Assembly (NCBI RefSeq): GCF_964204865.1
Contig: NC_135260.1
Coordinates: 19,824,001 to 19,888,000 of the forward strand
Length of the DNA stretch: 64,000 nucleotides
Source: Styela clava
Lineage: Eukaryota; Chordata; Ascidiacea; Stolidobranchia; Styelidae
Direction: 5' to 3'
Of this stretch, positions 7,331-51,806 are shown one piece after another. Every line of letters starts with the position of its first letter. Positions within the stretch are counted from its first letter, which is position 1. The notes beneath the pieces were generated by a model. It saw only the letters and a list, made by a program, of their open reading frames with translations, was not told the origin of the DNA and made no database searches. The position numbers and the translations under genes are program-made.

Positions 7331-7510
7331 AATCAAAAAATATTCATTTGTCGATACATTCACTTGTCCGTTCTCAATCCCTTCTTGATCATTGCGTTTT
7401 TTCTTTGAATGCTGGAACTAAAAGTTACTATTGCATGTGCTTTCATACATTTGCCATAGTGCCAAAATCATAAATCCGGTATACAAAAGTACTTAGTTAA
7501 ATTTAACGAA

Positions 7511-8647: not shown

Positions 8648-11600
8648 ATGGCGGATAATATGGATGAAGATGATTTGGTTGTACCGTACAAAAAACTAAG
8701 AAAAGAGAAGGCCGGAATTGAGGGTGAAGATTTTGGAATTCAACCCAATTTAAGTGAGTTTATTTTAAAAGTTTTTATGGTACCGGTATATTGTGTACCG
8801 TACAGCCATATAGTCTACAGAACTCGAATGAACTGGATGAGGATATTCTGACAAGTCCAGAAGTCCTGTTGTTTCTAGCCATCACCCTCTAAATTCTAAA
8901 ACAAAAGTCGCAATCGCTTGTTTCTCTATTAATTTGTTACACAACTGATTATGTTAGTCTGTGACTGCTAGGCTAAAACCTCCTCGAATATTTATCAAAA
9001 TTCCAAGCACATTAATACCGTCAGACCGTATTTACTTTGACTTCATGTTAACATCATGGTTAAGATGACATTGCTGGGCTAATTTTCACTGTAGATTATT
9101 TACTTGTCATGTATATTCCTGTATTCTGTACCGTAATTTACAAAAATACAATGCATTATTTCAAAGTGTCTAGTGATGTCATTTCTGTATTATAATACTG
9201 ATAATATGTCCAAGTCCAGAGGTCGTAATGAAAAAAATCATAATATGAGTCTAATTTTCAATGCATATCTGCGTATGACATCATTTATGTAGTCTTGATG
9301 CGGCAGATTCAAAGATTGATAGTCGTAGCCCTGAAATACCAAGTCACAGATCAACTACAAACACGTCGATTCAGTTGGTTGGCTTTGGGTGAGCTTATAA
9401 TGTTAACCCTCGGACATAGAAAAGGTATTAGAAATGCATCAAGTGGGGAAAATTTCACTCTATCAATGCTTTATGTTTATATCAATTTGTTTTTTTCTCG
9501 TATTTACAGGTTCTCATTTCTCCAATGGGCTTGGTGATTCAAAGTATAAAAGTGGAGAATCAGCACCAGGACGTCATCTACGTTTTCATTCCGTTGAACA
9601 AGATGATGTCCAGAGTAGTTCAGGCAATAGTAGTAATATAGAAAATGAAAATCCCAATGATGAAGATAGCGGCAACATAAGTGATTCATCATCTCATGCA
9701 AGCTCTGGGGATTGGCAAAGAAGACCAGCTGGTTTGTAGCGGAGTTTTATTCAAAATTACGCTTTTTCAGGGTTCATTTTATTAATTTCAAATACCTTTC
9801 CCTCTTATTCTTAAGTAGTGAATAATTTGGTAATGATGCTTTTTTTTATTACAAAGCTGTATCCAATTCGAGTTAAAAGAATTTCGATTCAGATTCCAAG
9901 TTTTCAACATTATTTTATTCAAATGCCTGAGCCTTATTTCGATTAAAAAACTTGACTCGACTACAGACTGACTAGTCTCAAGACTCCAATGGCTTGTGAT
10001 CCACGGTTTAGGGACTACCCGACAATTATTATTAAACACATTCATGCGATCCACTCTGCAGCGCCGTAATATTGTATCATAAAAAGTTTAAAAAAAGTGA
10101 TATTATTCGTTCCTTTGACAAGGTATCTTTCTTCACAGGTATGATTGGATGGGTTCATGCACAGATGTTGTCAGGCGTCGATCCTAGAGAAATTCTTCAC
10201 CATCTTGTACCAAGTTTATCCAGTAGTTTACCTGTAGACATCAATCCATTTACGTTATGGAAACTTGTGAGTTTTTTTTTACCTTTTAACCCTAACAAAG
10301 CTGTCTTACAACCCATACGCTGGTGAAAAATCTTATTGCTCAAACATAGTTATATTTATGAAATTGATGCTGGCATTTTAAAACAAAATTTGTTTTGAAA
10401 AGTCTCTTTGCCATTGGAAACATGCAACTGCATCTTTTTTAATACAACATTGTTGAAGGGCCGCCACACTCTAATTCTAAAATGAAAGAATTGGTATTTG
10501 ACTCGACTTGGCACCGACCTAACGTGTATTGCCATAGCCTCGGGACTCTGTTGTCGTTATCTCCTAAATGAAGATGAACCATCCAACCAACCAAAGCGTC
10601 GTACGGCTGTACCATAAAAATAAGCAACCACTATAATTCGAGGTGGCACCTGGCCAACTTTGCATGCTTGGTGATGATCGTGATGCAGACACTATTCGAG
10701 GATTGATATGAGATCGCAATTTAAATTCAGAAGGTCCACGTTAAATCACAATCATATTCAGGCTATCAAAATCTTTGCTCTTTTGGTTGTCTTTTTCAAA
10801 CTTATACTTTTTTTGCTATTTCAGGTTTTAAACATTCTGAGTGAGCCACAGAGACGACCAAAGTTATCCCACATCAATTCATTGTCTGATGTTGTCAATC
10901 TGATAAAAAATGCAAAAAATATATTAGTACTAACTGGAGCAGGGGTGAGTGATGTTCTATCATCAGAAAATGTAAATCTTCAATAAGGCAAAGTGAGAAC
11001 TGAAGGGACATGATATATATACGTAAATGACTTCATCGAAAAAAATTGTCACCATCAAGGTTTATCAGAAAGCCGCCCGTCTTTAGTCTGGCCATCGATT
11101 ATATGGTGGCCATTCGGTGCCCTCATTATAAGTTTATATCTGCCCTAAAGTACAGAAATGAGAGGGAAGACAAGCCGTGAAGCGAAACATCTCTTTGTTT
11201 GACATGAATATTTATCTCGGAGCAGCTAGACGCCATATTTACAGATATTATAGCTTAGTTCTGGTTAGTTCATAGCTCATTTATAACTGAGTTTAATTGA
11301 ACTCAGAAAATTCTTCCCTCTGTCTGTTGTCACTAATTTAAATCTATGTTTGCAAGGTTTCAGTATCATGTGGAATTCCAGATTTTCGTTCCCGCGATGG
11401 AATATACGCTAGACTTGCAGTTGATTTTCCTGACCTACCAGACCCACAGGTTTGACTTATACTGTGTAAAAGTTTTCATGAGCAAATTGCATGACATCAT
11501 AAATAATATTTTCTTTGTTTCTAGGCGATGTTTGATATATCATATTTCACACAAGATCCTCGACCATTTTTTAAATTTGCAAAGGAAATATATCCAGGAC

Positions 11601-14600
11601 AATTCAAACCTAGCAGAAGTCACAGGTAGTTTTCAAACTTTTAAATTTTAAGAATGATAGATCATAGATGATAGTACTTTTTAGTGTTGGGGCAGTGCAC
11701 TCAAGTCATGATTTGTACTTGTAACCACCAGTACTCGACTTAACTTCGAACACTCGGACGAACTGTGACTCAAAAACCCTTAAAAAAAATGTTTTCATAT
11801 TTTGCGTAACTAATTCAATTTTCATATAGGTATATGTTTAATGACTCTTGTATCACATATTTTTTCACAATCACTTGCTAAAAGTCGCTACAAATGAGGG
11901 TGCTGCAGAAGTGTGTGTACCAACTACCAATATGGAGATAACTAATTTTGTCTTCCTACTTTACATCAAGTTGTGTGAAGCGACTGAAACCTATGGGCAG
12001 GGGGTATATTCACTGGGCTAAGGCAGACAGTCTCTGAACTTGTAATAGAACTAAAATGCGGAAAATGTGAATATAATTATGGCCTAACCCTAACCTGGTA
12101 CCAGGGCTGGGGAGCTGGTTCGAAATCATGATGGCTCCGGCTCCAGCTCCGGAGTCGCAGTGTATTCAATCTTTAGTTCCAGCTCCGGCTCCATAGCCAT
12201 TATCAGTAGTGCAGCCCAATAACGCATTTTGCTAATTGTTTTCTAAGTGTGGCATGTTATTTAGGCTGTAAACACCCTTCAAGTTGGTGTCATGATAATT
12301 CCTTTTTGTTCCTGCATGTAACTTTTGAATCCACTGAGAGTTATTTTATGCTGTATTTCCGGGCGAATCGATCTACCCAGCATATAAGGGTTTTACATAT
12401 AACCCACCCCACAATAAGACGGGAAGGAATATCGGCTTCTGGAATGGTCGCAGCGTTTGCGCATTCGGTAAAATAGCTCATAATGACTTTTTCTACCACA
12501 TAATATTTAACCCATAATAACTGTCTTTTTATTTTAATTTAATTGTGTTCAACATAACTGGCAATCATGCCGGCCAAATAAAATCTGTCGTGGGCCATTC
12601 TAAAGCAAAAATTATGGTGTTTTCTGTTTTATTTTCAGTATTTTATAATGTCGCTTTTTAATCAGGAAAATTTGGTTTGCGTATTGACTTCTTTATTTAT
12701 CTTAGAATTTCATCACCGGTGATTATGTAATAACTCGTTTTCTCACAAATATGGTGCGCGACACAAAACATATGTCTTGAGAAATTGTGATTAAGGGAAA
12801 AATAAACACTGAAATAAAAGATGTTATGGCCTAATGTTTATGGCGACTAAAACAATTGACGCTTTTCACGAAATGCAACGCACATGTGATAGTAACGGCA
12901 ATAGCCCTTCAACTCATGATAATTTAAACTGGCCTGACGGAGGGCAGGATTTTATGGTCCAAATTGAATAAGCAGACCCAAAATAATGGAAATTACCATC
13001 GTCACCCAATTAGATGCCGTCCCCCTCTCCCAAATCAGGCCAAAAGTTGGTTCTAGAATCGAGGCGTTTTCATAATTATCAGCGATGAGATGTTAAAGAT
13101 AAATAGAGAAGTCAATTCGCAAGCCGAGTTTCCACATTGGAGAGTTATTATAAGATACTAAAATGAAAAGGAAAACACTATAAACTTTGTTCTGGGAGAC
13201 TCCCAACAGCTAAAAAAAATGCCTTGTTAATCAGGTTAATCTCATTATATTTTTTGCCTACGACATATTATTTACCGGTTGACTTTGAAAATTATACAGT
13301 CACTAAAATAAATACTCGCGATATACTTTTTATATATTCAAAAAATAACAACGGAAATTGATGAGACTTTTCTCCAGAACATGCTATTTTATAGATCAAA
13401 ACAAGATATAATGGGGCACTTTGCCATACATTTTTATGCCAGGTGACTGCTGCGGAGCATTTTGGAGTAGTTAAACCTTTCTTTTGTCGTAAAACGACTC
13501 AATCTCGAGATATGTTGAACAGAATTGAAGACATTTGAAATGGATTGGATATTCAACGCCACGAAAAAATCATAATATGTTACATGGAAATTCCAAAATC
13601 ACTTCTTCGAAAATCCCTGGCCGTTAGGGTTTTTGAGCTTGACCGCAATCATGAAAAATTGCAGCTTAGTGGAAATGAGAATCAAAATTTTGATAAAAGT
13701 GAACCGCTTCAAATTTTGATACTAAACTTTCAAACATACAGAATAACTGAAAACTTTTTAAAAAATAGTAGGAACTAAAATTTTTAAAATGAATTATAAG
13801 CTGAAAAGAAAAGATTTTATCATTTGTAACGCTATCAGAAAAAAATTATAAATTTGAAAAACAAAAAATGAGATATTTAGGAGCTGGAGCCTGGAGCCAC
13901 TAAATTTTTGGTAGCTCCAGCTCCATCTGTTATGAAAAGCTTGGCTCCAATTCCGACTTCGGCTCCATCAAAATGTAACGGCTCCAGGCTCCGACTTCAG
14001 CTCCGGCTCCCCAGCCCTGCCTGGTACACACACTACGAGAGTACCCAAATAAGCACTGCTTTTATATTTTTCCTCCTATATGAGAAACCTGTTAAATACT
14101 CGCTTTGTCCCATATGGCAGAAATTGAGGTAGATTACCGGTTAATTGTTTCAAATCCGAATACATGTGGACTGTTATGTATTCAAATATTTGACATTTTT
14201 GATTTAAGATTTAAATTTTGATGAACTAAAATCTTAGTAGGATCCGATGTTCTTTACTTAATTTCCATCTTCCCCATTTCCAGGTTTATATCATTGCTAC
14301 AAAAGACTGAAAGATTGCTCAGGAATTACACTCAAAACATTGATACTTTAGAACAAGTTTCGGGTATATCAAAAGTTATTCAATGCCATGGTAAGTTAAT
14401 ATAGAAGATGTTAAAGAAAATTTAGTATTAAACTCGAAGTAAAATCTTGAAATGTCTGGAACTTTCCACAAATTATTTATTTTATATTCACTTTTTTCGA
14501 ATATATTTGGATATCATCTATCATCAAAATATAAACTGAAAACTAATGATTTGCACTGCAGATAACTATTTCATTTTACCTGTAAAAGTCAGTATTTAAT

Positions 14601-17600
14601 GAAATGAGGCCTTTTCAATATTAATATAATGCATAGAACATGCTATTGTAAAAAGAATGCACATCTTTTGTAATGAAAATACGGCGCTCCCGAAGTATAT
14701 GAACCAAGATGGCGCACAACCTGAACCCCAACCTGGTACACATAATATGTTAAGGTTGTGCGCCATCTTGTTGCACATACTTTGGGAGCTCCGAAAATAC
14801 AATACCAAAATTGACCAAATCCTATTCATATACTCAGTACATATACTCAGTTTCGAGCGTTTATTATTGTATTTGCTAATTCACGAGGAAGAGCAGCCAT
14901 ATTTTTTGTGCGAATTAAATAGTTCTGGGAGTGCTTGGAGTTGCAAACCTAAGTAAACCCAGAATTTTTCATAGTTTTTCTACGTTAGGAATCATTCATG
15001 TTAACTGAGTAAGCCAATGTACATCTGATTTTTCTAAAAACTTATATATTTTTTAGGCTCATTTGCTACTGCATCTTGTCTAAAGTGTCATTACAAGGTG
15101 GATTGTGAAGTGGTCAGAGAAGATATATTCAACATGGTTTGTTAATTTTCAATGTGAAAGCATAGATATAATTCTTATTGTCACAGCTACAGACGTTTAT
15201 ATTTTAACCCTTTCCGGTGGGCACGTATACGTACCAACGACAAAAGTCGCTAGATTGTGGCGGGTACGTTGATGTACTCCACTGTTTTATTTAGCAATCG
15301 GTCGCAAACTGTTGGTCTAGTTTTTTCGGGTTTTAGTTTATTGATAAGAAGTCTTCTTCGAGATTAACATAAGCGACGGTAAATCTCGCTTTCGTTTACG
15401 ACGGGAATTTTATTTGCGGGAGAACGATTGAGTGTTTTTGAAATTTATGCAAATTTCGGTGTTTTTTGGGTGGTAATAAAAGACATATTATCCCTTCCAA
15501 GTACCAAAGTATTTTTAGATACATCACGAAATTGCTACAGCAATATTATGCTATTGTTTGCCAACCACGAAGCGGTAACAGTCAAGGATTTAGCGAATAT
15601 TTCTTTTTTTTTATCACGGTTTGAAGTTTCAACTCTCAAGAAAAAAAAGCCTTTTTTCTATCCGGTTTGTGACTCAGACCACCACTTAGAATAAAACTTT
15701 TTTTTTTAATCGCCAATTGCAAGCTCTTTAAATAAGCTTTCCAACGAGCCGTCAGTGGGCAGCAGAGGATCATTAGTTTTTCGTTAGTCGATCGATTAGT
15801 TGTGGGGGTACAAATGCATAAAATCGGCGTAGCAAATAACGATTATTTAATAAAAAATAAAAATCGCACGGAAAGGGTTAATGATCTTGATTTTGAAATC
15901 TGATTTGATCAAATGTTAGGTGGCATCATTTCATAGATATCATATTATTTTAATAAAAAAAATATTTTAATTTCTGAATTTTTAATATTCTTATCTACTC
16001 TTGAATTATTTTGGAAATACTTTGCTTTTCTCTCTCTATTTCTTCAGAACGAATCTCAAAAACTTGGTGACTGGGTGGCCACTGTGCCCTACAACAAACT
16101 CAGGCTTTTTACCCCTCAGTCCTATGTTATATTAAAATGGTCCAGCTTCTCTGAATTTATATGAATTTATCTGAATGAAAGTATAGCTTTGTATTACCGG
16201 AATATTTATCCTTTTAGAAAGTACCTCGATGTCCGAAATGCCCTCCTGATGAAGAACTATCAATAATGAAACCTGACATTGTGTTTTTCGGAGAAAGTCT
16301 ACCTGAACATTTCCACAGGCAAATGTCAAAAGATAAACACGATACAGACTTACTCATTGTCATCGGATCATCTTTAAAAGTTAGACCAGTGGCCTTGATA
16401 CCAAGTAAGCATTATCTTTTATCCGAGTTGTTCGTAATTGGTAATAAATTGGCACTTCTGTATTTACTACTACTAGTAAGAAAAATATTGGTTTGCCTGT
16501 CAAAAAGTGATACCTAAGGCACTATATGTGTTTAGTTTGAATACTATTGTTGACGTAGTAGACTTAAAACACAATGTGAAGGAATGGGTTTATCTTAAAA
16601 ATTTCTAAGGGACGGTCTCATAGGCATTGGACCTAATTGTTGTTCTTCAAATGCTGAAGATATTGAGATTTGACAAATTGGCGTCGCAGGTTCGTCTTTG
16701 CCCACTTTCTCACCCAGGTTGCAATAAATTGGGTAAGCAAGGCAGAACAGGAAAGTTTTGGATCTTTGAAAATCAATAGCTGAAAACACCCCATAATAGA
16801 ATTGACTCTAATTTCTTTATTTTTGCAACTTTAGATTTTCTTTTTCATACTAAATACTATGGTCTTTATAATAAGGTAACATTCAAACTTTCATTTTTCT
16901 CCCAATTCACTCTCTAATTTTTAGATGTAGAGCATGCGGTAAAAGCTGACCACTATTTTGCAATTCTTGGATTTTTCCTCATTAAATCTTTTTTTATTTG
17001 CCCAGGTTCTCTCCCTGACCATGTGCCTCAAATACTCATTAATCGAGAACCTCTACCCCACGTACAATTTGACGTTGAGTTATTAGGTGACGGTGATACA
17101 ATTGTAGCTGAGATCTGCAGGAGATTGGGATCTGAATTTCTAGATATCGCAGAAGAACGTGATCCGTAAGTCATAGGCCTACTTGCTTTTATAAATACTT
17201 TTTTTTGTCAGGGAAAGTGGCTTTCAGTACAGTTTATTTTTAAAAAGACTAAATACTGTCAATAAGCCAATTCACCAGTTTTCTAATTTTTCTTTGCTAC
17301 CACCCACTCTATAGTCATATAATCTACCTAGAAGTAAAACAGATTTGAATGATAAAATAGTCTTATATGGATAATGGATATGTTAAACAAAGAAAGGTTT
17401 TTATGAAGGTTATATATTTTCCAAAAAAGGGGAATCACTAGTAAGTACAGAAAGTTGGCAAATTGTATCGGGTATTCCAGCCCAGAATAAGTTCTGTGAA
17501 TGAATTAAATATACATTTTTACTTCAACTATGAAATCTCCCCAAACTGTTTTACTTTAAAAAATTAATTTGTATATGCAACCACCAACATAAAAACCAAT

Positions 17601-20600
17601 TCTACAATCTTTTCAGACTTGTCGAAATTGACGTCTTACCTGATGAAAGTTCTCCATCGTCAAGTCAACAAACCTCAACAAAGACTTCAAATTCTGAAGA
17701 AAATGACCTGAGTCAAGAAGATACCAAACAAAATACAGATTCTATAACTTCTACATCAGAAAGTCAAGCGATCCTCACGGGTGACAAAAACAATATTTCA
17801 TCATCAGATTCTGAAAAAGTCTCTAGTGCCACAGATGTCACACCTTGCCAAACAAATACTGATAATGAAGATTCACAATCTTCATCTAATGTTCAAAATA
17901 AACCTTCAAGTTCAGCAAATGTCAATGTAACAGATGGCAAGAACATTTCCTCTTTACAACAATCAAATGATTCCAAACTTGTAGAAAGTGGTGATAAATT
18001 ACATGCTACGGAATCAAATGATGAAAAACAAACAAATGAAAAAGAAAAAACAGAAAAAATTTTCAATAACATGTGGAAAAGCAGATGGAAGCAGTCCATC
18101 AGCAAAAGATTACCAGGTACATTTATATATATAGACTCTATATTGGCATCAGCTTAGCTAAATGAATGTACCAATGGTGTAAAATAAGGCTTGGCTGTTT
18201 TGTTTAGAATGGCTTATCCAGTTTTTCACATCTATGTCTGTGGTGATATCTCATATTATATTAGATTTTTCTAATAATTATAGCAGGGGTTGGCAACCTA
18301 CTGCCCGAGAGTGAAATAATCCGGCTCGCGATGGATCATTTTGTTAATATGTTATTGTTCTTGTTCACATCGATGTTTGGAAGTACATATGTGTGTGGAC
18401 AATTATTTTCGAAAAAGAACAAGCGAAGAACTAGGCTTAGTGATGCCCATTTAGAAAATGTTCTAATCTTGACTTCATCCAGTGTGTCACCTGATGTCGA
18501 AAAGCTATCAAGCGTAATGCAACAAAAAGTGTCACATTAAATGGCATTTGTAAATTTTTTGCAGTCAGTCGTCACATTGTTCGCTTAATATTTAAAGTCT
18601 AAAATTTCCACTTCTGATCTGTGTAAAAAATGTGATTCATCAGCCACCCGTTCGTTTTTTTAACTTTCTTAAAAAATATGTGCGGTCCACCAAGATTTGC
18701 AACCCCTAATTCTGGACCACGAGCGACAAAAGGTTGTCGACCCCTGAAAAATAGTCTTCACCAAGCCACTTTGGTGCCAAGAACCGGTTGTGCATTGCCT
18801 ATCTGATTATTATTGTCCATGTTAGGTGTGGGAGCCTCCTTGTATGTCGGGTCTCAAAAAAGATGATGCATAAGAGTTGTTGATGCCACATAAAAACAAA
18901 CAGAATATCTAAAATATTATTTTTGAATAACAAGTTCCCCCCCGTTGATTTACTTACAAGTCATCAGGGAATAAAAAAGTTCTCTAAAAGATTTTATATT
19001 TGTCTCGAGTGTATCAACTTTCCTGATCTTTTTATCGCCACTGACAATCACAGAACATGATTTACGTCAATTTTGGCCATCTTAAAATCAATGATTTTCG
19101 TTATAGTTGGTTCGTTTTACTATGACGGAAAATACCGATACATATTCCCTGGTGCGGAAGTTTCTCCAGAAGAAGTCGATGATGATGATGATAGTGATAC
19201 GAGTGATATAAGTGATGACGAAGTTGGTGAAAATAACCAAGATCAGTCGAGTTCCTCTGATGAATCAGAAGAAGATATTAAAGGTATAGGCCTAATTCTT
19301 GATCATGATATTGACTATCCAGAGATGAATTTTATTGTTTTTTGGTAAGGAACTGCAGAAATTGTACTCTGTATCAATCTTTTTCATTAGTATTAGTACC
19401 GATCTCAGTAGTATCTGAAACAAACTTAACAAGTATCTGAAGTTTCTTGGCCTGACTTTGCCTTCTTAGGCAAATACATGAGGTGGTTTGTCATATTATT
19501 GAATTTTTTTCTGGTTTTCCCTCTCTAGGTAAATAAAAAAATTGTATTCTTTAATCCTATATACTGCAATACTTTTGTAGGTCCTGGTGGTCTCTCGTCA
19601 ACTAGAAGAGATTTAAGGACAAGTTCAATGAAATCTGGTCATCATCATCATTTCCACGGTTTATCATCGTTCGTTCATGATCATGATGTTGTGATGATGA
19701 ATCATAGCAAAGATTGTTGTTCAGATAAAGAAAGCTCATGTGTGAAAGGCAATTCAAGCCATAAGACATCTGAGGTTAGTATTTATAACCAACCATTTTA
19801 ATTTGTTTCATCTTTTTTTATTTTGTTTTGGGTTATTATATAGATACTCTATGAATGAGGCTTAGTACAAGCGGTTTACGGTCATGTCATGGGACAGTAT
19901 TTTTTAAAGAATCAAAAGCTTTATGATTTGGCATTGCTTGCCCAATTTGTGACATTCTGGGCCAAGTGGTGGACATAGGACTCGAACCTGTGATATTAGA
20001 GTTGTGGTGCCTAATTTAATTTATTTAAAATATTTGAAACAAGTAGGTCATCACAGCCACAAGTTTGGACTAAGTAATGTCACATGGTATTTGAGTGAAA
20101 AAAGAAATATCAGAATCTTGCGCTTGGGACACATTTCCAGACATTTTCTAGATTTGGTTTTGATGCTAACAGGGTCAGAAAAAACAGATTTGCACAGATA
20201 GGTTGTGGCGAATTGAACTAGCAGTGAAGAAGCTTTCTTATTAAGTAGTGGGTAAGGATCGCAAAAGGATAACCAGAAACTCATTATTACTCAAGAGTAA
20301 TAACACAAAGTGTTTTAATTTTTTTACTACATTGCCACATCTAACACAAATAATTTATTTCAAAGCCCACACAAAATACCACAACCAGTACTGATTCGAA
20401 ATCTCATTTTGAACCAATAAAAGAGGAATCGGATTCTATCATTCCTGATGAATTACATGAAGATATTATAACTCTCAGCACCACGAGTCACTCAAGTCAT
20501 TCACCGTTACCAGAAAATTTACACAAATTATTTAGTAGCGATCATTTACACAATGAGAAGGATGATGCAATATTAAGTAAGTTTATTAATGTTCAATGCT

Positions 20601-21433
20601 TTTAATTAATTAATTTTTAATTAAGCAAGCACTTGTGAGCATAATTAGTTTTTGGAAGTTTGCCATTCTAGCAATAGTGTTTTCACTTCGAAATTTCATG
20701 AGGTATTTTTGTATATATCAGAGTTTGCTGTACAAGTAGTACCAAGGCAGTAGGATCTTCAATTATATTTTTGCTCTTGCTTTTACATCAATATGAGTGA
20801 TTTGTGTGAGCCATGCTCACCAATTTCACAACAAATTCATATCATTAATTATATTTTTGGTACTCCCGTAGTATATGTACCAGTTTAGGCCATAATTTTA
20901 TTCCGATTTTCCTTAAGCTTTCTGATTCAACTGAGAATATTTTGGTTCTATTAAGAGTTCGGGGACTGTCTGTTTTAGCCAAGTGAATATACCCCCTGCC
21001 CATAGGTTTCAGTCCCTTTATACAACTTGAGGTAAAGTAGGCGAACAAAATTAGTTACCTCCACATAGGTACATACACTTCTGGAGCGCCATACTTTCTA
21101 ATATTCCTAAAGTCTGGGACCCCTTCCCAATTAGCAGATGCTTAATCATTGACATAATTTGTTTCTGTACCAACTACCAATACCAATTTGGTTATATATA
21201 TGTACATTGCTATCTCTTTTCGTACGAGTGCCAAATTGCTATTTTATTTTTTCATTATATGTATACCTTTGAATTATTTTTTAGTCAAACCAATTCTGGA
21301 AGTACCTGACACAGCACAGATCCTCGACCTTCCATCGTCGTCTCTCTTACCTCCGATAGATGACAAATATTCAATTTCAAATCAAGATTCTGTATCTGCA
21401 GAGGAAAAATCAAATGATAACCAAACATCTTGA
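8648..21433 (+). CDS. SIRT1: SIRT1, NAD+-dependent protein deacetylase (16 exons)
   Basis: Class I sirtuin that removes acetyl groups from lysines of histones and transcription factors, using NAD+, mainly in the nucleus. Exons: 8648-8753, 9293-9388, 9510-9731, 10139-10266, 10825-10944, 11357-11449, 11525-11625, 14284-14390, 15057-15136, 16218-16404, 17006-17165, 17617-18116, 19107-19283, 19581-19774, 20366-20576, 21285-21433. All phases agree and give 876 residues (human 747). Seen in order: acidic Ser-rich N-terminus; the allosteric-activator domain (TLWKL..ILSEP); NAD+ site [28 protein letters not shown]; catalytic His in IQCHG; zinc ligands CLKC and [23 protein letters not shown]; a long Ser/Thr-rich tail in exon 12; then [13 protein letters not shown], the conserved C-terminal ESA segment that completes the Rossmann fold. 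Exon 14 adds a His-rich stretch absent from vertebrates. Exon 2 (96 bases, RLIVVALKY) is doubtful: exon 1 also joins exon 3 in frame, giving 844 residues. Introns hold several transposons. Confidence 0.95.
11899..14045 (+). repeat. Family A repeat (GGCGCTCC/TGTGTACC), split by a hAT insertion
   Basis: 11899-12101 and 14020-14045 are the two parts of one repeat, with the family end-motif GTACACA.ACTACGAGAGTAC at the right and GCAGAAGTGTGTGTACC at the left. Other copies are at 14683-14792, 20859-21090, 25673-25872 and 29411-29625. They share CAAGTTGTGTAAAG, GGGCAGGGGGTATAT and CTAACCTGGTACACA, on either strand. It lies in SIRT1 intron 7. Confidence 0.7.
12102..14019. mobile_element. Non-autonomous hAT element, 1.9 kb, with perfect 8-bp target duplication
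   Basis: The ends are perfect inverted repeats, CAGGGCTGGGGAGC and GCTCCCCAGCCCTG, flanked on both sides by the 8-bp duplication CCTGGTAC (12094-12101 and 14020-14027). Both are diagnostic of hAT. Subterminal sequence at both ends is packed with GGAGC/GCTCC motifs, likely transposase-binding repeats. The interior shows no transposase; frames at 12249-12476 and 13545-13778 are unrecognised. Because the duplication interrupts a family A repeat, this insertion is the younger of the two. Confidence 0.85.
14683..14792. repeat. Short family A element with long inverted ends
   Basis: In SIRT1 intron 8, GGCGCTCCCGAAGTATATGA..CCAAGATGGCGCACAACC is inverted at the right as GGTTGTGCGCCATCTTG..CACATACTTTGGGAGCTCC. 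The whole unit is a 110-base MITE-like hairpin, an internally deleted family A copy. Confidence 0.65.
15208..15877. mobile_element. piggyBac-type MITE flanked by TTAA
   Basis: In SIRT1 intron 9. The element begins CCCTTTCCG and ends CGGAAAGGG, and a TTAA lies directly outside each end (15204-15207 and 15878-15881), the exact target duplication of piggyBac. Just inside the left end GGCACGTATACGTACC is palindromic. An 88-codon frame (15428-15694) shows no transposase motif, so the element is non-autonomous. Confidence 0.8.
18284..18746 (+). mobile_element. hAT remnant with transposase C-terminus (SIRT1 intron 12)
   Basis: Ends CAGGGGTTGGCAACC and GGTTGTCGACCCCTG are inverted, with an imperfect 8-bp duplication (AATTATAG / AAAAATAG). 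The + frame 18331-18540 includes CGQLFSKKN and [17 protein letters not shown], matching the end of the hAT dimerisation domain of GTF2IRD2/EPM2AIP1-like transposases, and stops at its natural-looking end (KVSH). The remainder of the transposase has been deleted. Confidence 0.75.
20859..21090 (-). repeat. Family A repeat, inverted copy
   Basis: In SIRT1 intron 15. It reads GGTACTCCCGTAGTATATGTACC at the left and CACTTCTGGAGCGCC at the right, the reverse of the copies at 11899 and 29411, with the shared TATACCCCCTGCCCATAGG block. Confidence 0.7.
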
Positions 21434-26080: not shown

Positions 26081-26690
26081 GTCCAAGGGTACGACTTTGC
26101 AGGGCCACAAAAACTTTTGAGGATGTCTCGCGGGCCGCAGTCTGATAAAAACCAAAAGTGATCAAAACATCGCGAGTTTGAGTAGCGTTTAGGGTTTTGA
26201 TAAGTTTTTATATTTTATATAAAGCCTTCCGTTATTTTAAAATTGCTTCCAGAGAAATACCGTGATACTTTTGGTATCTTTTCTCGTGTTTGATTTTGTA
26301 ATTTCGCTTAAAATTACATTCTTTCGTGACATATATTACTCGAAAACACACCAGACACTGTGGTTTAACGTTGTTGTGGGTAAGGAAATACGTTTCCTCC
26401 CAGTTTATCTCGAACACCACTTTTATTACACTCATTATTATGATGATTTGTTATATTTGACTAATTTTATTACTTGCAGGCGGCGTGAGCAGGCCTGGTG
26501 CAATCGCAAAAGAACAACCAAGTCCGTCCAAGTTGGGACTCAAGACCCAGATAAAATAAAGTTGGATCGCGTGGCGCTAAGTCAACTCTGCGGTTCGTCA
26601 CTGCTGTCACATGACCAACGATTGAAAATAGAGGAGTGTTTTACTAAAATAAAGTCACAAAGCGTCTCTCCAAAAGAGAAATGACTTGCG
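26081..26690. mobile_element. hAT-like element copy 1: BED finger (-) and a second coding stretch (+)
   Basis: It shares about 600 bases with 35505-36130. The left edge is rich in GGGCC/CGCGGGCCGC, as at hAT ends. On the minus strand, 26435-26232 reads WEETYFLTHNN, CLVC, KECNFKRNYKIKHEKRY: a BED-type zinc finger (C-x2-C ... H-x4-H class) like the N-terminus of GTF2IRD2/ZBED5-type hAT transposases, then a quick stop with no core. On the plus strand, about 26490-26690 reads SRPGAIAKEQPSPSKLGL then, after a frame change, SHDQRLKIEECFTKIKSQS, which I do not recognise. Confidence 0.6.
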
Positions 26691-27952: not shown

Positions 27953-27958
27953 TTTATT
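27953..27958 (-). terminator. Candidate polyadenylation signal of the Shisa-like gene
   Basis: AATAAA on the minus strand, 90 bases after the proposed stop codon (28050-28048). Position and orientation fit, but the motif is common in AT-rich DNA. Confidence 0.4.
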
Positions 27959-28047: not shown

Positions 28048-31000
28048 TTAGTTTAAAATGTATAGATTTGTTAACCTTTGCTCATTATGTTGTTTGTTCT
28101 CCTCTTCTATCGCAGAAAAAATTGAACTATATGACGGAGGTAATATATTTTCTTCAGATAATGTAGATGTTTTAATTTTTATTTCATCAACTTCCTGTCG
28201 GAATTAAAGCAATACAAAAATTATTGATAGTTTTTTTTCACTTCAAAAATATATTTTTTATAGGCAGAACGAAATGAGTATGAATTCATGCATAGAGATT
28301 TTATTTGGTTTGTTCGTCGTCTTTCTCCTGCCTATAATGGTAAATATTAATTCCATTTATGTCATGTATCGAAAACTGTTTGTTTACCTCTGTATGATGC
28401 AGTCGTTGAACATTTCTTGATTCAAGTTTTCGATAAAGTTGAATATCTTCATATAATGGAGGAAGTTCATTGACAGCAATTGTTGTTGTGTGTGGGTCAT
28501 TTCCGGTTGTACCTTGAATATAAATTTGCTTTTTATTTTTATGTGAAAATTATAGGAAAATTTCTCATAATTTATAACACTTGAACTTCTGTTTGTGTAT
28601 GATTGTACTTAAAATTTCACAATAATCTGAAATTCTCTGCACAAAAGTTTGCAAAATGATTTATTATTACAAACATATATTCTAATACAAATATTTTTAT
28701 TATCTATAAAGTTTGGAAACAATGAATTTAAATGAACTAAAAATGAGATATTAAATTGACTCGTCCATGTTATTCATACTTCTTTTATTCCCAGACGTAA
28801 AATGGATCCAAAATCACGAAAAAAACATATCAGTCAGATTTATTAAACAAAAAAGTTTATTTAAGCGTGGGAATAATATTTATGACCGAAGCCCACGAAT
28901 TTCCTCTAATTTTTTGAACTTGATAATACCGAAAATATTTGCCACACAAGTGAAAACTCACCGTTTCCTTGAGGTTGAAATCCATTCCTCATTTTTCGTA
29001 TTTTTTGAATTAATTTTTTTATAAGATACTGAGAACTCATTGCAAGAACAAAAGAACCAACCATTCCCCCGATAATAAAACCCAACATTGATGCCGACCT
29101 GTTGTGACAAATTTCGATTTGTTTAGAAATATTTATACATCACGGACAACTATTCATTCAGTTTAGATATTATCCAGCAAGATTTATCGATCGAACAATA
29201 TTGCAAATTTTAAACAAGTGCACACATGAAACGACGAAAAATTAAATTGCTAAAATGCTATGGGATATACTTGGTTGGAAACTTACTTGGGAAATTTTGG
29301 TTTCTTCCCAATTTGCAATTTAAAAAATTGAGTGAGTGATCACATAGTTCAAAATTGGTTGGTTCTTATAAGCTTTGCTGCAGTTTTCACAAACTCGAAT
29401 TTAAATTTTTGGCGCTCCAGGAGTATGTGTACCAATATGGCGATAACTAATTTTGTTCGACTATTTTAATCAAGTTGTGTAAAGGGACTATAACCTATGG
29501 ACAGGGGGTATATTTACTTGGCTAACACAGCCAGTCCCTGAACTCGTAATAGAACTAAAATAAAAAAAATCGAATTAAAATTATGCCCTAACTCTAACCT
29601 GGTACACATACTACGAGAGTATACCAAATTTTTAGTAATTATGTATGAATTACTTGCTTTGTTCGGCATCATACAATTTATTTGATAGCCACGCCGGTTT
29701 TGATAGTCACACCTATTATGAAACAAGATACACAGAGCCTGATTTGGATCATCAAAGGCATATATTTTGCGATATAATGAAAAATATTGGAAAATGGTTT
29801 ATCTTGATATCTTTTGATCCTTGTGAACATCCTAATTTATGTGTTTGCAGGTTAACATGATGGTATGTTTATATAGAAAAAAGTACAAAAATCTGAATTT
29901 TATCTAACATTTACGTTTGAAGAACATGTTACAAAATACTTTCATTTTCTAGTATACCTTGCGAGTGATAATTTTTTAAGTACAAACCCCAATATAGCTA
30001 AGTATTTAATGCGAGAACCTTTCAAAAATTGAATAAGGAAGGAAACAGGGTTAGAGTCTAGAATAAATCGCAATCAACTGAGGCTCATCTATTTGTCCTG
30101 ATTGTAAGTAATTTAGTGATCCTGGAGCCTGTATTCCGTTTTCCTATAAACTCGTCACTGTTTATATTTAAGCGAAGCCTTGTTTGGAGCGATATTAAAA
30201 CATCGTTGTAATATATATACATACGTTATGTTAGGGCTATATATGGATAAAGAATAGTACGAATAGACAACGGCAAATATTGATTTACTTGTTCAAGTGT
30301 TAGAGTTACATGAACAAAAATCGCAATTTTGTGCCGTTTTCAAGTTTCTTAAATACAAACATTGCTTGGGGCTGAGTGTGTACGTAGCAAAATTTCCAGA
30401 TATAATTAGATTATGTACTGCTGATGGGCTAATCTTGACTGTTAACATAAAAATACAAACTATGGCTTGAATGAGTGGAAATTAATAAACTGTGGAACTT
30501 TGTAAAAAAAACAAGTTAACGACAATTTTGCAAGCGAGTTGCATTTTGTCCATTCGTGTAACGTGACCCGCACACTTATCGCAACGTCACCAACGTAAGT
30601 TTTCAGTATTTATTAATCGTTATTTCGGCACGACGTAGAAGGCTGTAATTTGCATGCAAAACAAACAACATTATCACTAAATCGGATCTATTGTATACGT
30701 ATCCTTACGTGTAATTATTATCTGTTATATTGTCATATGTTTGTTTTTGATTTTAGAAGCTACAAAAGTTGAGTTCACGAGTTTACGTGGGTTACCGAAA
30801 TTAATTCGATGACAGCCACCAAACAAGAAATCAATGCGCGTATAGAAAAGTGGTACATTCACCAAGAATACAATCGATTACGAATCGACTCGCTTCCTGG
30901 AGCAATTGTATTCACAAAACAACATAATGTCACTTTTTCGATCTTCCACAACCATAAAAGGGATTTACCTGCAAAGCGATTGCTATCGTATTTACAAAAA

Positions 31001-31994
31001 AAGAGATTCTTTTTGTTTGAACAGTATGAACACCATCTCTATAACCAGGCTTGTCCATGTGACATATTTTTCTGCCCTATCTCATCCCACAGTAATTTAT
31101 GCCTGTCCTGTCCATACAATTCAGTTCAACCCCGAACCAGTTCAAAATCCAACCCCATTTTGAATTTTTTTTACTCCATCTCTACATGGTTAGCATGACA
31201 AATCTATTGAGGATATTCACTTACCCTTCGATTTCTTTTTTCTCCGCCTCACATTTTGAAACATTCAATTCTCTGGTTGAATTATTGCAACAAACTGATG
31301 TTCCACAATCGCCACAGCAGAACACTGACTCGCCGTTTGTTTTAATTTCACATTCTTTATTGTAGTCACATGTGTGATGTGGAACGTCGTCGAATGCGTC
31401 CAAAGTGAATAGTAAAGCTGTAAAAGTTATTTGAACCATGTTTCCTATCCATATTCAAAATTTTTAGGTGTTAGTAGCATCTCACAGAAAATTGTTTGAG
31501 CAAGCAACCGACCAGGTTATGGTAATACAATAAAGGACATACTTCATACAATTTCATAGCATTTTTAGATTTCTTGACAATGCCAAGTTGAAAGGTTTTA
31601 TAAGCTGTGTTATTTCTTAAATTACCCGGGTCGAATTTATAATGTTACGAATAGGGTAAACATTCCAGAGACTTCTGGTACATATGGCTCGTTCAACTAA
31701 ATTATATTCATACGGGTGGTGATACTGAATTACACCAGTGGAAATTTATCCACGTTAAATCGAATTATAAATTTCCTTCTTCAAAAAGTTCCACCCGCGA
31801 ACAATTTCTTCCATTTAATATTCTACCCAGACAAAATTCAACCTTAAATTATATTTTGAGTTTTTATTACTTTTACCAGACACCCTGAATGAATACATAC
31901 ATGATACAAATTCTTTAGTTCATCTCCCAAGTATGAAAAAGTACTCACCGACAAAGTAGCAGCAGAAGAATAGAAAACTTGCATTTGCAGACAT
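28048..31994 (-). CDS. Shisa-like single-pass membrane protein (five short exons)
   Basis: Exons in order: 31994-31949, 31417-31225, 29098-28962, 28512-28388, 28194-28048. All have GT-AG borders and the phases (1, 2, 1, 0) fit throughout, giving 215 residues. Seen: a signal peptide starting MSANASFLFFCCYFVALLF; a cysteine-rich ectodomain with the Shisa hallmark FCCGDCGTSVCC plus flanking Cys; one membrane segment (MLGFIIGGMVGSFVLA) followed by Lys/Arg; then a cytoplasmic tail with two PY motifs, LPPLYEDI and ILPPSYSSI. Shisa-family proteins act as adaptors that retain or tune receptors, and PY motifs bind WW domains such as those of NEDD4-type ligases. An alternative cassette (28331-28221, acceptor CCATTATAG) would end the protein early, before the second PY motif. 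The exact subfamily (Shisa, WBP1/VOPP1, others) is not settled. Intron 2 carries a family A repeat. Confidence 0.8.
29411..29625 (+). repeat. Family A repeat, most complete copy
   Basis: Runs from GGCGCTCCAGGAGTATGTGT to CATACTACGAGAGTATACC, 215 bases, in intron 2 of the Shisa-like gene. It shows the full layout: inverted GTATGTGTACC/GGTACACATAC ends, the CAAGTTGTGTAAAGGGACT block and the GGGGGTATATTTACTTGGC block. No coding capacity. Confidence 0.75.
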
Positions 31995-35504: not shown

Positions 35505-36130
35505 ATCAAGGCGCGAGGTTGGCGGGCCGCAAACACTTTTGATGATGACTCGCTGGCCGCTGTCGGATAAAACCCAAAAGTGATCGAAAGATAGCGAGTA
35601 CACTAACTTTAAATATGTTTAAGAAATAGAGTTTACGGTTCTGATCAGTTTCGAAAATTATATAAGTTATTTTAAAATTGCTTACGGAAAAATATCGTGG
35701 TATTTTCGGTATTTTTTCTCGTGTTTGGTTTTGTATTTTCGCTTAAAATTACATTCTTTCGTGACAGATATTACTTGAAAACACACCAGACACTGTTGTT
35801 TAGCGTTGTTGTGGGTAAGGAAATACGTTTCCTCCCAGTTTACCTCGGTCCCTTTTTTTATTACACTCATTGTTTGATGATATGTTATATTTGACTAATT
35901 TTATTACTTGTAGCATGAGTAGACCTTGTGCTATCGCAAAAGAACAACCAAGTCCGTCTAAGTTGGGACTCCGGACCCAGCGGATTGCGCGGCGCTAAGT
36001 CAGCAGCTCTGCGGTTTGCCACTGCTGTCACATGGCCAACGCTTAAAAATGAAGGAGGGATTTACTAAAATAAAAGCACAAAGCGTCTCTCCAGATGAGG
36101 AGTTACTTGCGCGACTCATCTCATCGGCAT
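35505..36130. mobile_element. hAT-like element copy 2: BED finger (-) and a second coding stretch (+)
   Basis: The paralogue of 26081-26690. The minus frame 35870-35682 repeats WEETYFLTHNN, CLVC and KECNFKRKYKTKHEKKY. The plus strand here has an ATG (about 35914) and reads SRPCAIAKEQPSPSKLGL, then in another frame LLSHGQRLKMKEGFTKIKAQ and DEELLARLISSAWSC, open further than in copy 1. Both copies share the same two opposed coding stretches, so this arrangement belongs to the element itself. Similarity ends near 36130. Confidence 0.6.
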
Positions 36131-39063
36131 GGTCCTGTCCCTTTTATAGCTCTTTATTATACGAACACGTCGGTGGTGTTGTCACAATGAATATACACAG
36201 ATTTAAAGCATTAAGTCTCCGACATCACTCATCGAAAAAGCGGATGCATTCTTGTTCAATCAGACCCAGAAAAATGTAGGGGAAAACAACTTGTTTCAGA
36301 GAGTGCAGTGAATATTCGTAATTTATGAATTAATTAATACCTATCTAAGAGATAGCACGACAACAACATGCACACCCCAGTAACAATTCAGAAAAACGAT
36401 TCACAGGTCTGCTTCCATTTCTAACAAGACCAAATAAAAATATATTATTTAGCAGAATTAGTAATTCAATTTTATGACCTTTACACGAATTTCGCTTCTC
36501 AGAGTAAGTAACGTATCTCCTCATAGATGACAAAAGTTGTACGACATAGGCAATTAAACAAATTCCCCTGCCTCGGGCACAGGCAGACACATAATACCAG
36601 CAATCATTAAGATAAACTTCATTTATTTTATATGGTAGAATCTTATTTTCTAAACCTTAAACTATGAATCATTAACTACTTTTCTTACAGATATAAATTA
36701 CCATTCAAATTTGACTACTGCTTTGAAACCTTTGAAACTTTCTAATAATAACCTCATGTTCAATATACCGTAGCCTACAGCACTTCGTAACAATGACTAA
36801 GGAAGACATTCCAAGTTCTGAACACCGGGTAAAAAGTTTGCTTCACTTTCTACGCGGTCTATAGATAAAAATAGCCGATAACGTAAACTCGATATTACTA
36901 TCACCTGACCGGAACATAAGGTAGTAATCAAATCAAGACTGATTAACACGGAATTCTACAAAACTTTATTTATGGCGATGTTGAAACATTATATTTCAAT
37001 TTGTTAGAATGTTTATATTGGTTTTAATTTTACATCAGATTCAAATGAATGCAAGTTCATGTGTGTATCTGGATCGATTATTTTGTCAGCAGTTTCATAC
37101 CTGATATAGACTGGAACCTAAACTCAAAGGCATGGTTCACCGTATATTCAAGCCCTCGTAACGGCTCCATCCCCCCTGAGGACAGTTAGAAAACAGATTT
37201 GTTCTTCGAAATAGAGTTCCGCGTACAACTCTGAAATCAGTATATTTACATTCCGTTTCTACTCAGACAAAACAACTTTTATTGAAGATAAGCAAGCCAT
37301 CATGAGAGTTAACGCTAATATACACATTTTTTTGCAAAAAACGCACATTTCATTATTTGAAAGCAAAATTAATACAAAAATTGCCTTCGGTTATGGCACT
37401 GGCTCTTTAGCACCGTAAGTGTCTAATAAGACGTCAAATTTTCTTGCTTATTTTTTTTTAAATAATTGTACTATACCCTTCTTTACCTACTTGGAAATAG
37501 GATCCTCTTATCACAATCATGAATACGCAACTACTGGTAACCCAATTGGGGGAACATGTATTTAGATGGCAAAACTATTTTGTCACAACCGCTATGCACA
37601 CGCTTGTAAACATATCATGCAGGCGGGAATCATACCCCGTTACGCACGGGGCAATTTAGTGGAAATTCGAAGCTGTTACCTCCACCACAACAGACGCAGC
37701 ATGGGTGCATTCGTGCTAACAAATGTAGCATCACTTGCTAAAAACGTGCTCAATGCGTGCCTTGCATAAGTTACTTGAGTAAAGTTGAATTTGACAAAAA
37801 TCAACGAATACCTCAATTTTTAATGGAATAATGCAAATTAATTGGTTAAACTAGTTACGTATCAGCCAGTAAAAATATTTTTGAATAGAAATATAACTAT
37901 GGAAATATATCGGTTATAATTAGGTTTTGGTGTGATATATTTTTATTGTATCGGCAATATTTAATCTTGTTATCACTACCTAAACATGATAATTAAAAAA
38001 ATAAAATAAAAAATAATATAAAAATAAACATAATAAAATACCCGAGATAATCGTAAACGAAACTCGAAATAAAATAACGAAAGTCGTTATTTGAAAATCG
38101 ACTCGAAGCAACAAAATAATGTTTTTGCACCCTATGCCTTAAGTATATTTAATATCTCAATTAAATATCTCAAAAAACACTTCTTTGAAAATGGCGATAC
38201 ATATATTGCTTCCCGGCGATTCTCTTAAAATCAGGACAGTATTGCCAATAATATGATATTGAGACATATGATTATTTATGGGGTAAGCTATGAAAGAACG
38301 AACGGTATTTATGCCAAATTGTTGAGGCAGTCTCTCATGTAAAATAATATTTTATTGCAACTGCCTTTGCTCATATTCGCTCATAATTTATTAATACTTC
38401 AGTCTAGTAGCCCATAAATTACAGTCTAATCATTCAGAATAATATTGGGATGTCTTCTTCGTTTCTAATAACTCAACAATAACTTTCCGTGAAATGTTAT
38501 ACATTACAAGCACAGGACAAGGCATCTTAGGTTCAAAAAGCATCACATTTTTTCATCATATTCACATCGCAAGAGGTTTCTGGTACATGAAGATTAAACT
38601 AACCTTCAGATTTTTAACGGCCGGCGATAGTCCAGTGTTGAAATAGCTCTATTCGATAAGAATTGGAATATAACAAAAATTTCATTACTTTTATATTTGC
38701 TTCTTAACTCACCCAGGAACGTTTCCAAAAATTCCTTAAAAGATTACTGTCAGTGAAACTCAACAGGCTTAGTTGCTAAGGGAATTTCGACCACTTTCTG
38801 ACTGTGGAAGTTGTTGTAGGCACTGACAGAAGACCTAATTGTACATTATATCACGATAAATGATGCGATGTTGAGAATGGCGTATGAAAATGTTTCTACG
38901 GCACAATCAACAATTGTCTACCACTAATTTCGCAACATCTTCCATGTACTCTAACAATAGCACCATTATTGAGATTACATGCCTGATATGACACAACGTG
39001 GTGCAAGCATAACATTACGAAACATGCATGCAACGAGACCTCGCGACATAGAAGCATTTATCT
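36131..39063. other. Intergenic, no gene recognised
   Basis: A gene-poor stretch. The 67-codon frame at 37566-37769 (+) and 36590-36345 (-) show no domain. An A-rich run lies at about 37995-38040. Confidence 0.4.
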
Positions 39064-42507: not shown

Positions 42508-42941
42508 CTTTAAACCTTACTTGAGGTTTTGCTCGCTTTCTCAATTCTATAATAAGTTTTATTTATTTTGTTTTTATCAATCATTTCATCATCTATTGCT
42601 GATTACGTAGTTGAAATAAACTTATACTTATATTCTAGGGCCAAGAGGTTCACCTTCAGTTCAGCCGTCTTTTTCATCTGTATACACCACCCCAATCTCG
42701 ATGGGACCAGCAATAAATTTGGGATTGGATTTATTTGCTCAGCCATTTTCATCGGACTCAGATGAAGAGTTGAGTCAGTTTACAACACTCCAACCCATTC
42801 GGCCCGCATCCTATGCATATGTGGAACAGCAACAGAGCCCACAGCTGCAATTCAATTATCCCACAATCCAGACTTCTTCAGACATTCCTTCAACATCCAC
42901 GACTACACCACGTGTAGGAAGGCCCCCTTCGAGAAGATGGC

Positions 42942-43067
42942 GCCGTGGTCGTCCTAGGATGTCTAGAAGTCCTCAATATCAACAAACCTCACCGATCCAA
43001 ATATGCCGTGGTCGTCCTAGGATGTCTAGAAGTCCTCAATATCAACAAACCTCACCGATCCAAATAT
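42942..43067 (+). repeat. 63-bp in-frame tandem duplication in the transposase
   Basis: Two copies, 42942-43004 and 43005-43067, differing little if at all. Each encodes RGRPRMSRSPQYQQTSPIQI (the second is preceded by Cys). The unit is 21 codons, so the reading frame is kept. RGRP is the core of an AT-hook. Confidence 0.9.
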
Positions 43068-44685
43068 CACCAGCCACAACGCCAACCCATCCAGTTTCAA
43101 GTCCATTGCCATCTACCCCAAGATCTTCAGTTTGGGATGAAAATGAATCCGAACATCCTCCACAACCTATTCCATTCACAGGTCAGTCTCGGCATCACCT
43201 GGAAGGACCAATCTCTCCATTATCGGTTCTATTTCAATTTTTGGATAATGATTTTTGGGATAACATCACATCCCAAACCAACTTGTATGCGGAACAAGAG
43301 AAGCAAAGAATTGGAGATAGTGCGACCCCACGAAGTTATGTCAGTGAATGGAAACCAGTAACAGTGGCTGAAATAAAAGTCTTCCTTGGCCTCATATTGG
43401 TCATGGGACTTGTGAAAAAACCACTGCTGAGGACCTACTGGTCAAAAAAGCCAATGTATGCCTCCAGTTTTTGTTCAAGTCTGATGCCAAGAGATAGATT
43501 TCTGTCCATATTGACATTTCTCCACCTCAATGACAACACACAATGGGTACCATACGACCAAAATGGTTATAATCCACTCCATAAAATTCTTCCGTTTCTA
43601 ATCCTTTTAGAAGAAAAATTTAAAAGTTTATACAGTCCTGGAAAAGCCCTAAGTTTGGACGAAGGAACATGTCCTTTCAAAGGAAGAGTAAGATTCCGAT
43701 CTTACATGCAGAAGAAGCCAAAAAAATGGGGAATAAAAATTTATGAACTATGTGAATCTGAATCGGGATATTGTTTGGGGTTCAAGATCGCAACAGGAAA
43801 AGTTAGTGATGAGTCCAACACCACATATGCGGTTGTGATGCATCTCATGAGGAATTATCTAGGTGTCGGACATGAAGTGTATACTGATAGATACTATACA
43901 TCACCCCAACTGTTTAGTTGTACAGACAAAAAACTGTCGCGGTCGGTACATGCCGAATTGATAGGCGTGGCCTACCAAGAAGTACGATTCAAAAAAAACT
44001 CGAAAAAGGGGGGATAGTTTCTTCCAGAAAAGGCTCACTGCTTGTTTTGAAGTGGAAAGACAAGCGTGATGTACTTATGCTTTCCACAAAACATATAAGC
44101 GACACTAAAACAGTTCAAGTTCGTGGGCCTGGGGGATACAAAGATAAAGTGAAGCCTGTCGTTGTTCAGGATTATAATGACAACATGGCTGGTGTTGATA
44201 AGTCTGACCAGATGTTGTCTTACTACAGTTTTGAGAGAAAAACCAAAAAATGGTGGAAGAAACTTTTTTTCCATCTTTTTAATCTCACTGTTGTGAACTC
44301 TCACAAACTTTATACTATGGCGGCTCAAACAAACGACGATTTGAAGAGACTGAATCTTCTAGAATATGTTGAGGAAATAGTCAATAAGCTCACTTGTGAA
44401 GCTCATTCTGTAACAACAAGCCAAAGCCATCAAGTTGCGTCACACATCAGGCTATCCGGGCGCCACTTTCCAAAATTGAATGCTGCTAGTGCTGGAAGAC
44501 ATCATGTTCAAAGAAGTTGCCATGTTTGTAGTAAGAAAGATAGATCGAAGAGAAAAGAAGAGGGAGCTGGTCCCAGCACTAAAAACAGGAATTGGACTCA
44601 ATATCATTGCCCCATCTGCATCGTGTTCTTACATGTCGATCCGTGCTTCGAATTGTACCACACAATGGTGGAATACGACAAATAG

Positions 44686-49661: not shown

Positions 49662-49945
49662 CACGCAGTGTTGGGCAAGGTTTATAAACCAGGGAGCCAG
49701 AAATTTTGCCATGTAAGTGTGCCGTAACGTGTAACAATTTAAGAACAGTATTTACAGTGTTACAAAGCAAAGGTAGAAGACTATATGCTTCGTGCCAAAA
49801 CTAAATTTAACCGCAATCTCGACAAATTCCTTGAGCTATTTTTAGCTAGAACATCAAAATTCGATTTCGGTTTGGTTGTGGCTGCATCAGGCGGGCCAGA
49901 TTGAATTACCCAACGGGCCCGCCGGCCGTACTTTGCCCATGTCTG
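49662..49945. mobile_element. hAT MITE (family B), perfect 8-bp duplication, at the 3' end of SPATA1
   Basis: Flanked by ATCTAGAG on both sides (49654-49661 and 49946-49953). The right end CCGTACTTTGCCCATGTCTG matches the inverted end of 41847 and 54544. The internal GCTTCGTGCCAAAACTAAAT and GGTTGTGGCTGCATCA blocks are shared with 54544-54845. The SPATA1 frame overlaps it (49887-49945). Confidence 0.8.
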
Positions 49946-51770: not shown

Positions 51771-51806
51771 GTTTATTCTATAATCCGTTTCCAATCTTTT
51801 AATCAA

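Follow-up and report, generated by a model that had tools for sequence, protein, structure and literature searches.

A probable but divergent Shisa-type membrane protein gene split over short exons in the tunicate Styela clava

Overview

The stretch of DNA analyzed here, referred to below as the window, comprises 64,000 nt of contig 14 (NC_135260.1, positions 19,824,001–19,888,000) of the Styela clava genome, in an assembly of 376.6 Mb and 379 contigs. On its minus strand, between positions 31994 and 28048, lies a locus that an initial annotation, made from the sequence alone, had described as a hidden Shisa-like gene with exons too short to appear as long open reading frames (ORFs). Our analysis leads us to conclude, with good confidence, that the locus is genuine: an intact gene of several exons, encoding a type I membrane protein that spans the membrane once. 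The protein is of the Shisa type and probably belongs to the Shisa family, as a divergent member. The assignment is carried by an eight-cysteine domain that matches the Shisa_N profile, followed by one hydrophobic helix and two PY motifs in the expected order.

Organization of the Gene

The five exons were joined by a script on the minus strand, giving 648 bases that encode 215 residues, with no internal stops and a terminal TAA. The assembly proposed in the initial annotation was thus rebuilt exactly. In order, the exons measure 46, 193, 137, 125 and 147 bases (the last including the TAA) and are separated by introns of 531, 2126, 449 and 193 bases, all four with GT...AG borders and in phases 1, 2, 1 and 0. 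Exon 1, as proposed, spans 31994–31949 and would supply the ATG at 31994 and most of the hydrophobic signal peptide, ending in a GTGAGT donor; it is the uncertain part of the model and is considered separately below. Exon 2 (31417–31225) encodes the last part of the predicted signal peptide, followed by a Shisa_N-like domain with eight cysteines, which is predicted to be luminal or extracellular. The lone putative transmembrane helix and the basic stretch that follows it are in exon 3 (29098–28962). Exon 4 (28512–28388) begins the predicted cytosolic tail and carries the first PY motif, while the second PY motif, the end of the tail and the stop codon are in exon 5 (28194–28048). A candidate poly(A) signal, AATAAA, is found on the same strand at 27953–27958, 90 bases past the stop. 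The gene is presumably expressed.

The initial annotation had also stated that scans for long ORFs would pass over this region. This is correct, because no stop-to-stop frame of at least 150 residues overlaps the locus. The gene is an example of how a small, multi-exon gene can slip past ORF-based annotation.

The Cysteine-Rich Domain

When exon 2 alone was compared with Pfam, the best match was Shisa_N (PF13908), which at 22.2 bits just passes the cut-off of 22 (E = 1.6e-4). For the whole protein the best match was the same, under the cut-off (see below). The Shisa-type identity, for which the lack of a profile match to the cysteine region had been set as the refuting test, was in this way borne out for exon 2. 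We also scored decoys of the exon 2 peptide: none of five composition shuffles matched Shisa_N, and one of five shuffles in which the cysteines were held fixed matched it at 12.8 bits. That single match indicates that part of the score comes from the cysteine frame, with the real peptide about 9 bits over the best decoy.

The ectodomain has cysteines at residues 32, 38, 49, 50, 53, 58, 59 and 71. This is the pattern C*C*CC*C*CC*C, which PMC10531659 gives for all zebrafish Shisa proteins. The segment CC-x2-C-x4-CC-x11-C aligns without gaps with the solved structure of Shisa-3 (5m0w), the six cysteines being equally spaced in the two sequences. Such a segment is rare in this DNA: a scan of all six frames finds CC-x2-C-x4-CC at a single place in the window, where 0.0033 occurrences would be expected, and the longer form with x11-C was found in none of 300 shuffled windows. 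The ectodomain also contains the glycosylation sequons NNS, NST and NVS. A profile search started from an alignment of exon 2 with the Shisa-3 fragment did recover Shisa-3, and was set aside as circular. The sole match in NCBIfam was to an IS91 transposase model, far below its cut-off (7.2 vs. 125 bits), and Rfam at its gathering scores gave no match within the window.

The Helix, the Tail and the PY Motifs

The initial annotation had placed one membrane helix after the ectodomain, and this agrees with the hydropathy profile. A hydrophobic helix, with a mean hydropathy of 1.93, occupies residues 82–100, and apart from the signal region it is the sole such stretch among the 12 best 19-residue windows of the protein. 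Residues 101–120 include six K or R and no D or E. As judged by hydropathy, this basic stretch after the helix implies an orientation with the N-terminus outside and the C-terminus inside, that is, a type I topology.

Two PY motifs had likewise been claimed, and both are present in frame: PPLY in exon 4 and PPSY in exon 5. The surrounding residues, LPPLYEDI and LPPSYSSI, have the common form LPPxYxxI; for comparison, NEDD4-2 recognizes ENaC through an extended PY motif, PPxYxxL. The PPxY motif itself is not enriched, as it was seen four times in the window (once across a stop) against 5.72 expected. What is unusual is that two of the four fall in frame within the 272-base tail made up of exons 4 and 5.

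Splice Junctions and the Gene Finder

Splicing was modeled with a home-made gene finder, for which codon statistics were taken from 1552 codons of other ORFs in the window, with the locus itself excluded. The splice matrices were generic animal ones, with approximate values. Three intron penalties were tried, −8.0 (the laxest), −9.5 and −11, and a minimum exon length was set in the later version of the program. At −9.5 and −11, with the minimum exon length, the finder chose exons 2–5 with junctions identical to those of the annotated gene and with a start at position 31439. None of 1000 dinucleotide shuffles equaled the target score at any of the three penalties; at −9.5, the target scored 14.65, while the shuffles had a mean of 0.44 and a maximum of 7.78. 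The first version, run at −9.5 with no minimum exon length, also found the junctions of exons 2–5 exactly, with a score of 15.15, whereas the best of 300 dinucleotide shuffles reached 9.05. It opened the gene with an ATG at 31984, the donor of exon 1 and a one-base exon, the last of which is an artefact.

Ranked against the other sites on the minus strand, the four donors fell within the top 0.2–2.5% of GT sites and the four acceptors within the top 0.75–16% of AG sites, the acceptor of exon 5 being within the top 0.75%. The initial annotation had argued that four junctions that keep phase are hard to obtain by chance. The phases are indeed kept and no shuffle reaches the target, but the argument is weak when taken alone, because a reader is free to pick the sites.

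The Start of the Protein

An alternative model concerns the first exon. Here, exon 2 begins farther upstream, at an ATG in the same frame (31439), so that the first coding exon spans 31439–31225 on the minus strand and reads MVQITFTALLFTLDAFDD... The gene would then have the same function and four coding exons, encoding 207 residues, and exon 1 would be noncoding or would contribute only 5′ untranslated sequence. This model is compatible with the assignment of the gene to the Shisa type, and the odds of the two overlap; we give it slightly less than an even chance. It scores better than the five-exon model (14.65 vs. 12.03), which counts against exon 1, and it was the choice of the finder at two of the three settings. 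It also retains a hydrophobic beginning, MVQITFTALLFTL. The five-exon start, on the other hand, gives the more hydrophobic signal peptide, with a best 11-residue hydropathy mean of 2.68 vs. 1.88 for the four-exon start. Furthermore, the strong donor of exon 1, which ranks among the best 0.6% of GT sites, was used by the finder both in its first version and at the laxest setting, though from the ATG at 31984 and by way of an additional exon; the coding score of exon 1 is −4.0.

Both models therefore begin with a hydrophobic stretch, as judged by hydropathy rather than by a dedicated signal-peptide predictor. Of the original claim of a signal peptide, the hydrophobic start holds in either model, whereas exon 1 as drawn was not chosen by the gene finder. 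The choice between exon 1 and the alternative start is close to even, and the remainder of the protein is identical in both.

Placement in the Shisa Family

A number of observations weigh against a straightforward assignment to the Shisa family. The Shisa_N match of the whole 215-residue protein, at 17.9 bits, is under the cut-off. The match covers only positions 15–49 of the 50 in the profile, so that the domain diverges in its first part. A phmmer comparison with Shisa-3 (5m0w) was non-significant, both for exon 2 (E = 0.36) and for the whole protein (E = 0.67), and an AlphaFold model of the exon 2 frame (71 residues, predicted with no alignment) was uninformative, with a mean pLDDT of 51 and a pTM of 0.26. 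The protein has no juxtamembrane cysteines, it ends in YILN and therefore has no C-terminal PDZ ligand, and the tail, with 6 prolines in 113 residues by simple count, is not proline-rich. The whole-genome Shisa_N search (three candidates scored) missed the window's own exon 2.

A proline-rich cytosolic tail is usually listed for the Shisa family, and it lies outside the Pfam domain that defines the family. Because the tail is not proline-rich here, we consider the protein a probable, divergent member rather than a typical one. With Shisa-1 to -9 it shares a signal-like hydrophobic start, the eight-cysteine pattern, one helix and cytosolic PY motifs; it differs from them in the unmatched first part of the domain, the composition of the tail and the lack of a PDZ ligand. 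No subfamily can be assigned, as the features are mixed. According to PMC10531659, Shisa-6 to -9 are likewise without juxtamembrane cysteines, while PY motifs occur in zebrafish Shisa-3, 4, 5 and 7. The CKAMPs, in contrast, have a PDZ ligand (PMC6470934).

We considered the possibility that the protein is instead of the WBP1/VOPP1/CYYR1 type within the wider Shisa-like superfamily (STMC6), and not a Shisa proper. Members of this group share the signal peptide, the cysteine-rich ectodomain, the helix and several PPxY motifs, with another cysteine spacing, and the protein would then be mainly a ligase regulator. A tail with several PPxY motifs and without a PDZ ligand is found in CYYR1 and WBP1L (PMC11399591), and the unmatched first part of Shisa_N fits this placement too. 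However, the WBP-1 model (PF11669), which was in the library, is absent from the families returned with an E limit of 10 (four for the whole protein and two for exon 2), a limit at which the HMMER filters drop most matches above 0.1. Moreover, the same genome has a separate WBP-1 gene, spaced CC-x4-CC with no central single cysteine, as opposed to CC-x2-C-x4-CC here. We therefore regard this placement as unlikely.

The genomic WBP-1 search (three candidates scored) gave 42 and 29.1 bits at two places 2.4 kb apart on contig 10. They belong to a WBP1-type gene at 13524300–13526891 on the minus strand, with at least two exons, including the CC-x4-CC ectodomain (one place reads RCAVGHCCADANCC) and an exon for the helix and tail.

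The NEDD4-ligase adaptors NDFIP and ARRDC are likewise associated with membranes and have several PPxY motifs to which WW domains bind (PMC11399591), and the protein encoded here would work alike. They are not homologous to it, and the Pfam families found for the protein include no domain of theirs.

The search of the genome with the exon 2 peptide found only its own locus (one candidate scored). With Shisa_N, nothing was found over the whole genome at E up to 0.001, and at E up to 10 two places were found under the cut-off, at 16.5 bits (E = 3.45) and 15.6 bits (E = 7.53). A first candidate for a second Shisa among these under-cut-off matches contains internal stops and was taken as chance. 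The 15.6-bit match, at 22491881–22491970 of contig 3 on the minus strand, lies in a 99-residue frame with CC-x2-C-x4-C but without the second cysteine pair; it was also taken as chance, which is the most likely explanation compared to a decayed or divergent second Shisa exon. Because the window's own exon 2 was unlisted, these genome searches cannot show the absence of paralogues. A COX1 search of the genome, intended to establish the mitochondrial code, gave no match.

Could the Gene Be Accidental?

The gene finder also supplied points on the opposing side. At a penalty of −8.0, the junctions of exons 2–4 and the acceptor of exon 5 were kept, but spurious exons were added between exons 2 and 3 and the gene ended differently. 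The coding signal is weak in exons 1–3. The score is also modest in absolute value. When the window was divided into 52 segment-strand stretches in the first version, 12 outscored the two that overlap the gene (15.9 and 15.2). All but one of these 12 coincide with features described below (the SIRT1-like gene, the transposase or the 651-residue frame), parts of which were used in training; the remaining one is 57501–62101 on the minus strand. Finally, unshuffled 10 kb flanks, which may bear genes themselves, scored 1.8, 11.7, 12.2 and 13.4. Because these flanks reach 13.4, the score of the splice chain is not decisive by itself, and it is homology that settles the reality of the gene.

That unrelated open stretches happen to splice in phase around an accidental Shisa-like cysteine peptide, or that the gene is a decayed one, is very improbable: the high-scoring flanks, the weak coding signal and the non-significant phmmer comparison would fit such an accident, but it would also have to produce a chain equaled by no shuffle at any setting, a cysteine arrangement expected 0.0033 times per window, a Shisa_N match above the cut-off in exon 2, and five open exons with GT-AG borders, in which the helix precedes the PY motifs as expected.

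Proposed Mechanism

From the anatomy, the profile match, the cysteine pattern, the hydrophobic helix and the motifs of the Shisa-type protein, a mode of action can be proposed by analogy with the Shisa family; the topology, the disulfides, the client and the recruitment of a ligase are inferred. The signal peptide and the eight-cysteine Shisa domain would direct the ectodomain to the lumen of the endoplasmic reticulum (ER) or to the cell exterior, with the single helix as an anchor. The basic stretch would act as a stop-transfer signal and leave a tail of about 110 residues in the cytosol. The ectodomain, presumably disulfide-bonded, would select and bind a client receptor, while the two LPPxYxxI motifs would be docking sites for WW domains and so recruit ubiquitin ligases of the NEDD4 family. 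Either the client or the ligase might then be ubiquitinated and the complex sorted to lysosomes.

Parts of this scheme have precedents in the literature. Immature Frizzled is retained in the ER by Shisa proteins (PMC11237130), and Shisa1-3 keep Wnt and FGF receptors from being exported out of the ER (PMC6470934). In CKAMP44, single-cysteine mutations in the domain abolish the modulation of AMPA receptors and not the binding (PMC6470934). A role as NEDD4 adaptors by way of PY motifs has been proposed for zebrafish Shisa-3, 4, 5 and 7 (PMC10531659, Section 3.2), and recruitment of WWP1 through several PPxY motifs has been shown for CYYR1, an STMC6 protein (PMC11399591).

Implications for the Evolution of the Family

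The gene would be a new member of a known family. Its type is ordinary, and its presence is mildly surprising given the reported loss in Ciona. A search of the literature by title and start of abstract found no report of a tunicate Shisa; the comparison by Pei and Grishin from 2012, reportedly the founding one for the family, was outside the scope of that search, and an earlier record is possible. In a published survey, Ciona intestinalis is listed with 0 Shisa proteins and the urochordate is said to have lost the family (PMC7653359). The survey relied on mouse queries, a limit of E below 0.05 and the removal of matches under half the query length. Because of these queries, this limit and this length filter, a short, divergent gene could escape such a survey.

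We consider it somewhat better than an even bet that tunicates did not lose Shisa, and that a fast-evolving Shisa gene, split into small pieces, persists in at least one lineage, where it is missed both by BLAST with vertebrate queries and by scans for long ORFs. If so, the loss in Ciona would be a failure of detection, or would be limited to part of the tunicates. The urochordate absence in the published survey rests on one species, and a clear tunicate member would revise it. Vertebrate Shisa proteins set the number of Wnt, FGF and glutamate receptors that reach, or work at, the cell surface. The gene would let one ask what the chordate ancestor used Shisa for and, with its two docking motifs of the NEDD4 type, would provide a simple chordate model of the ancestral adaptor.

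Other Features of the Window and the Genome

A multi-exon SIRT1-like gene occupies 10824–21433 on the plus strand, its exon ends coming from the gene finder alone. Its Sir2 exon at 16218 matches solved SIRT1 with E = 2e-27 and the Pfam SIR2 family at 54.6 bits. Also on the plus strand, 42620–44685 encodes a transposase (DDE_Tnp_1_7, 190 bits), which we take to be of the piggyBac type. It is probably a broken copy, because it is split over two overlapping frames that meet near 43918–44014. A 651-residue frame at 49890–51842 on the minus strand has no confident Pfam match (the best, GAGA factor, scored 13.8 bits, under its cut-off); it is the top gene-finder segment of the window, though it was also used in training. 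The minus-strand stretch at 57501–62101, with a gene-finder score of 42.5, is unexplained by the named genes and is probably another gene.

An exon for a MARVEL-like membrane domain is found at 56246–56563 on the plus strand, with 30.1 bits, slightly below the cut-off of 32.8. Two plus-strand frames, at 26241–26681 and 35962–36276, encode a similar peptide (LSQLCGSSLLSHDQRLKIEECFTKIKSQSVSP and LSQQLCGLPLLSHGQRLKMKEGFTKIKAQSVSP, respectively) and appear to represent a repeated element, with no Pfam match. Just left of the window, in the segment 19814001–19824000 of contig 14, a 266-residue frame at segment positions 9202–9999 on the minus strand has many hydrophobic stretches and may encode a multi-pass membrane protein.

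Cellulose synthase joined to GH6 is a hallmark of tunicates, and the genome encodes the two together, in keeping with a tunicate host. On contig 9, in the segment 16172001–16182000 (segment positions 5232–8170), a cellulose synthase-type GT2 exon is followed about 2 kb downstream, on the same strand, by a GH6 exon. The GH6 match scored 35.4 bits when the genome was searched and 42.4 bits when the exon frame was compared, and the GT2 and cellulose synthase matches scored 60.9 and 28.3 bits, respectively.

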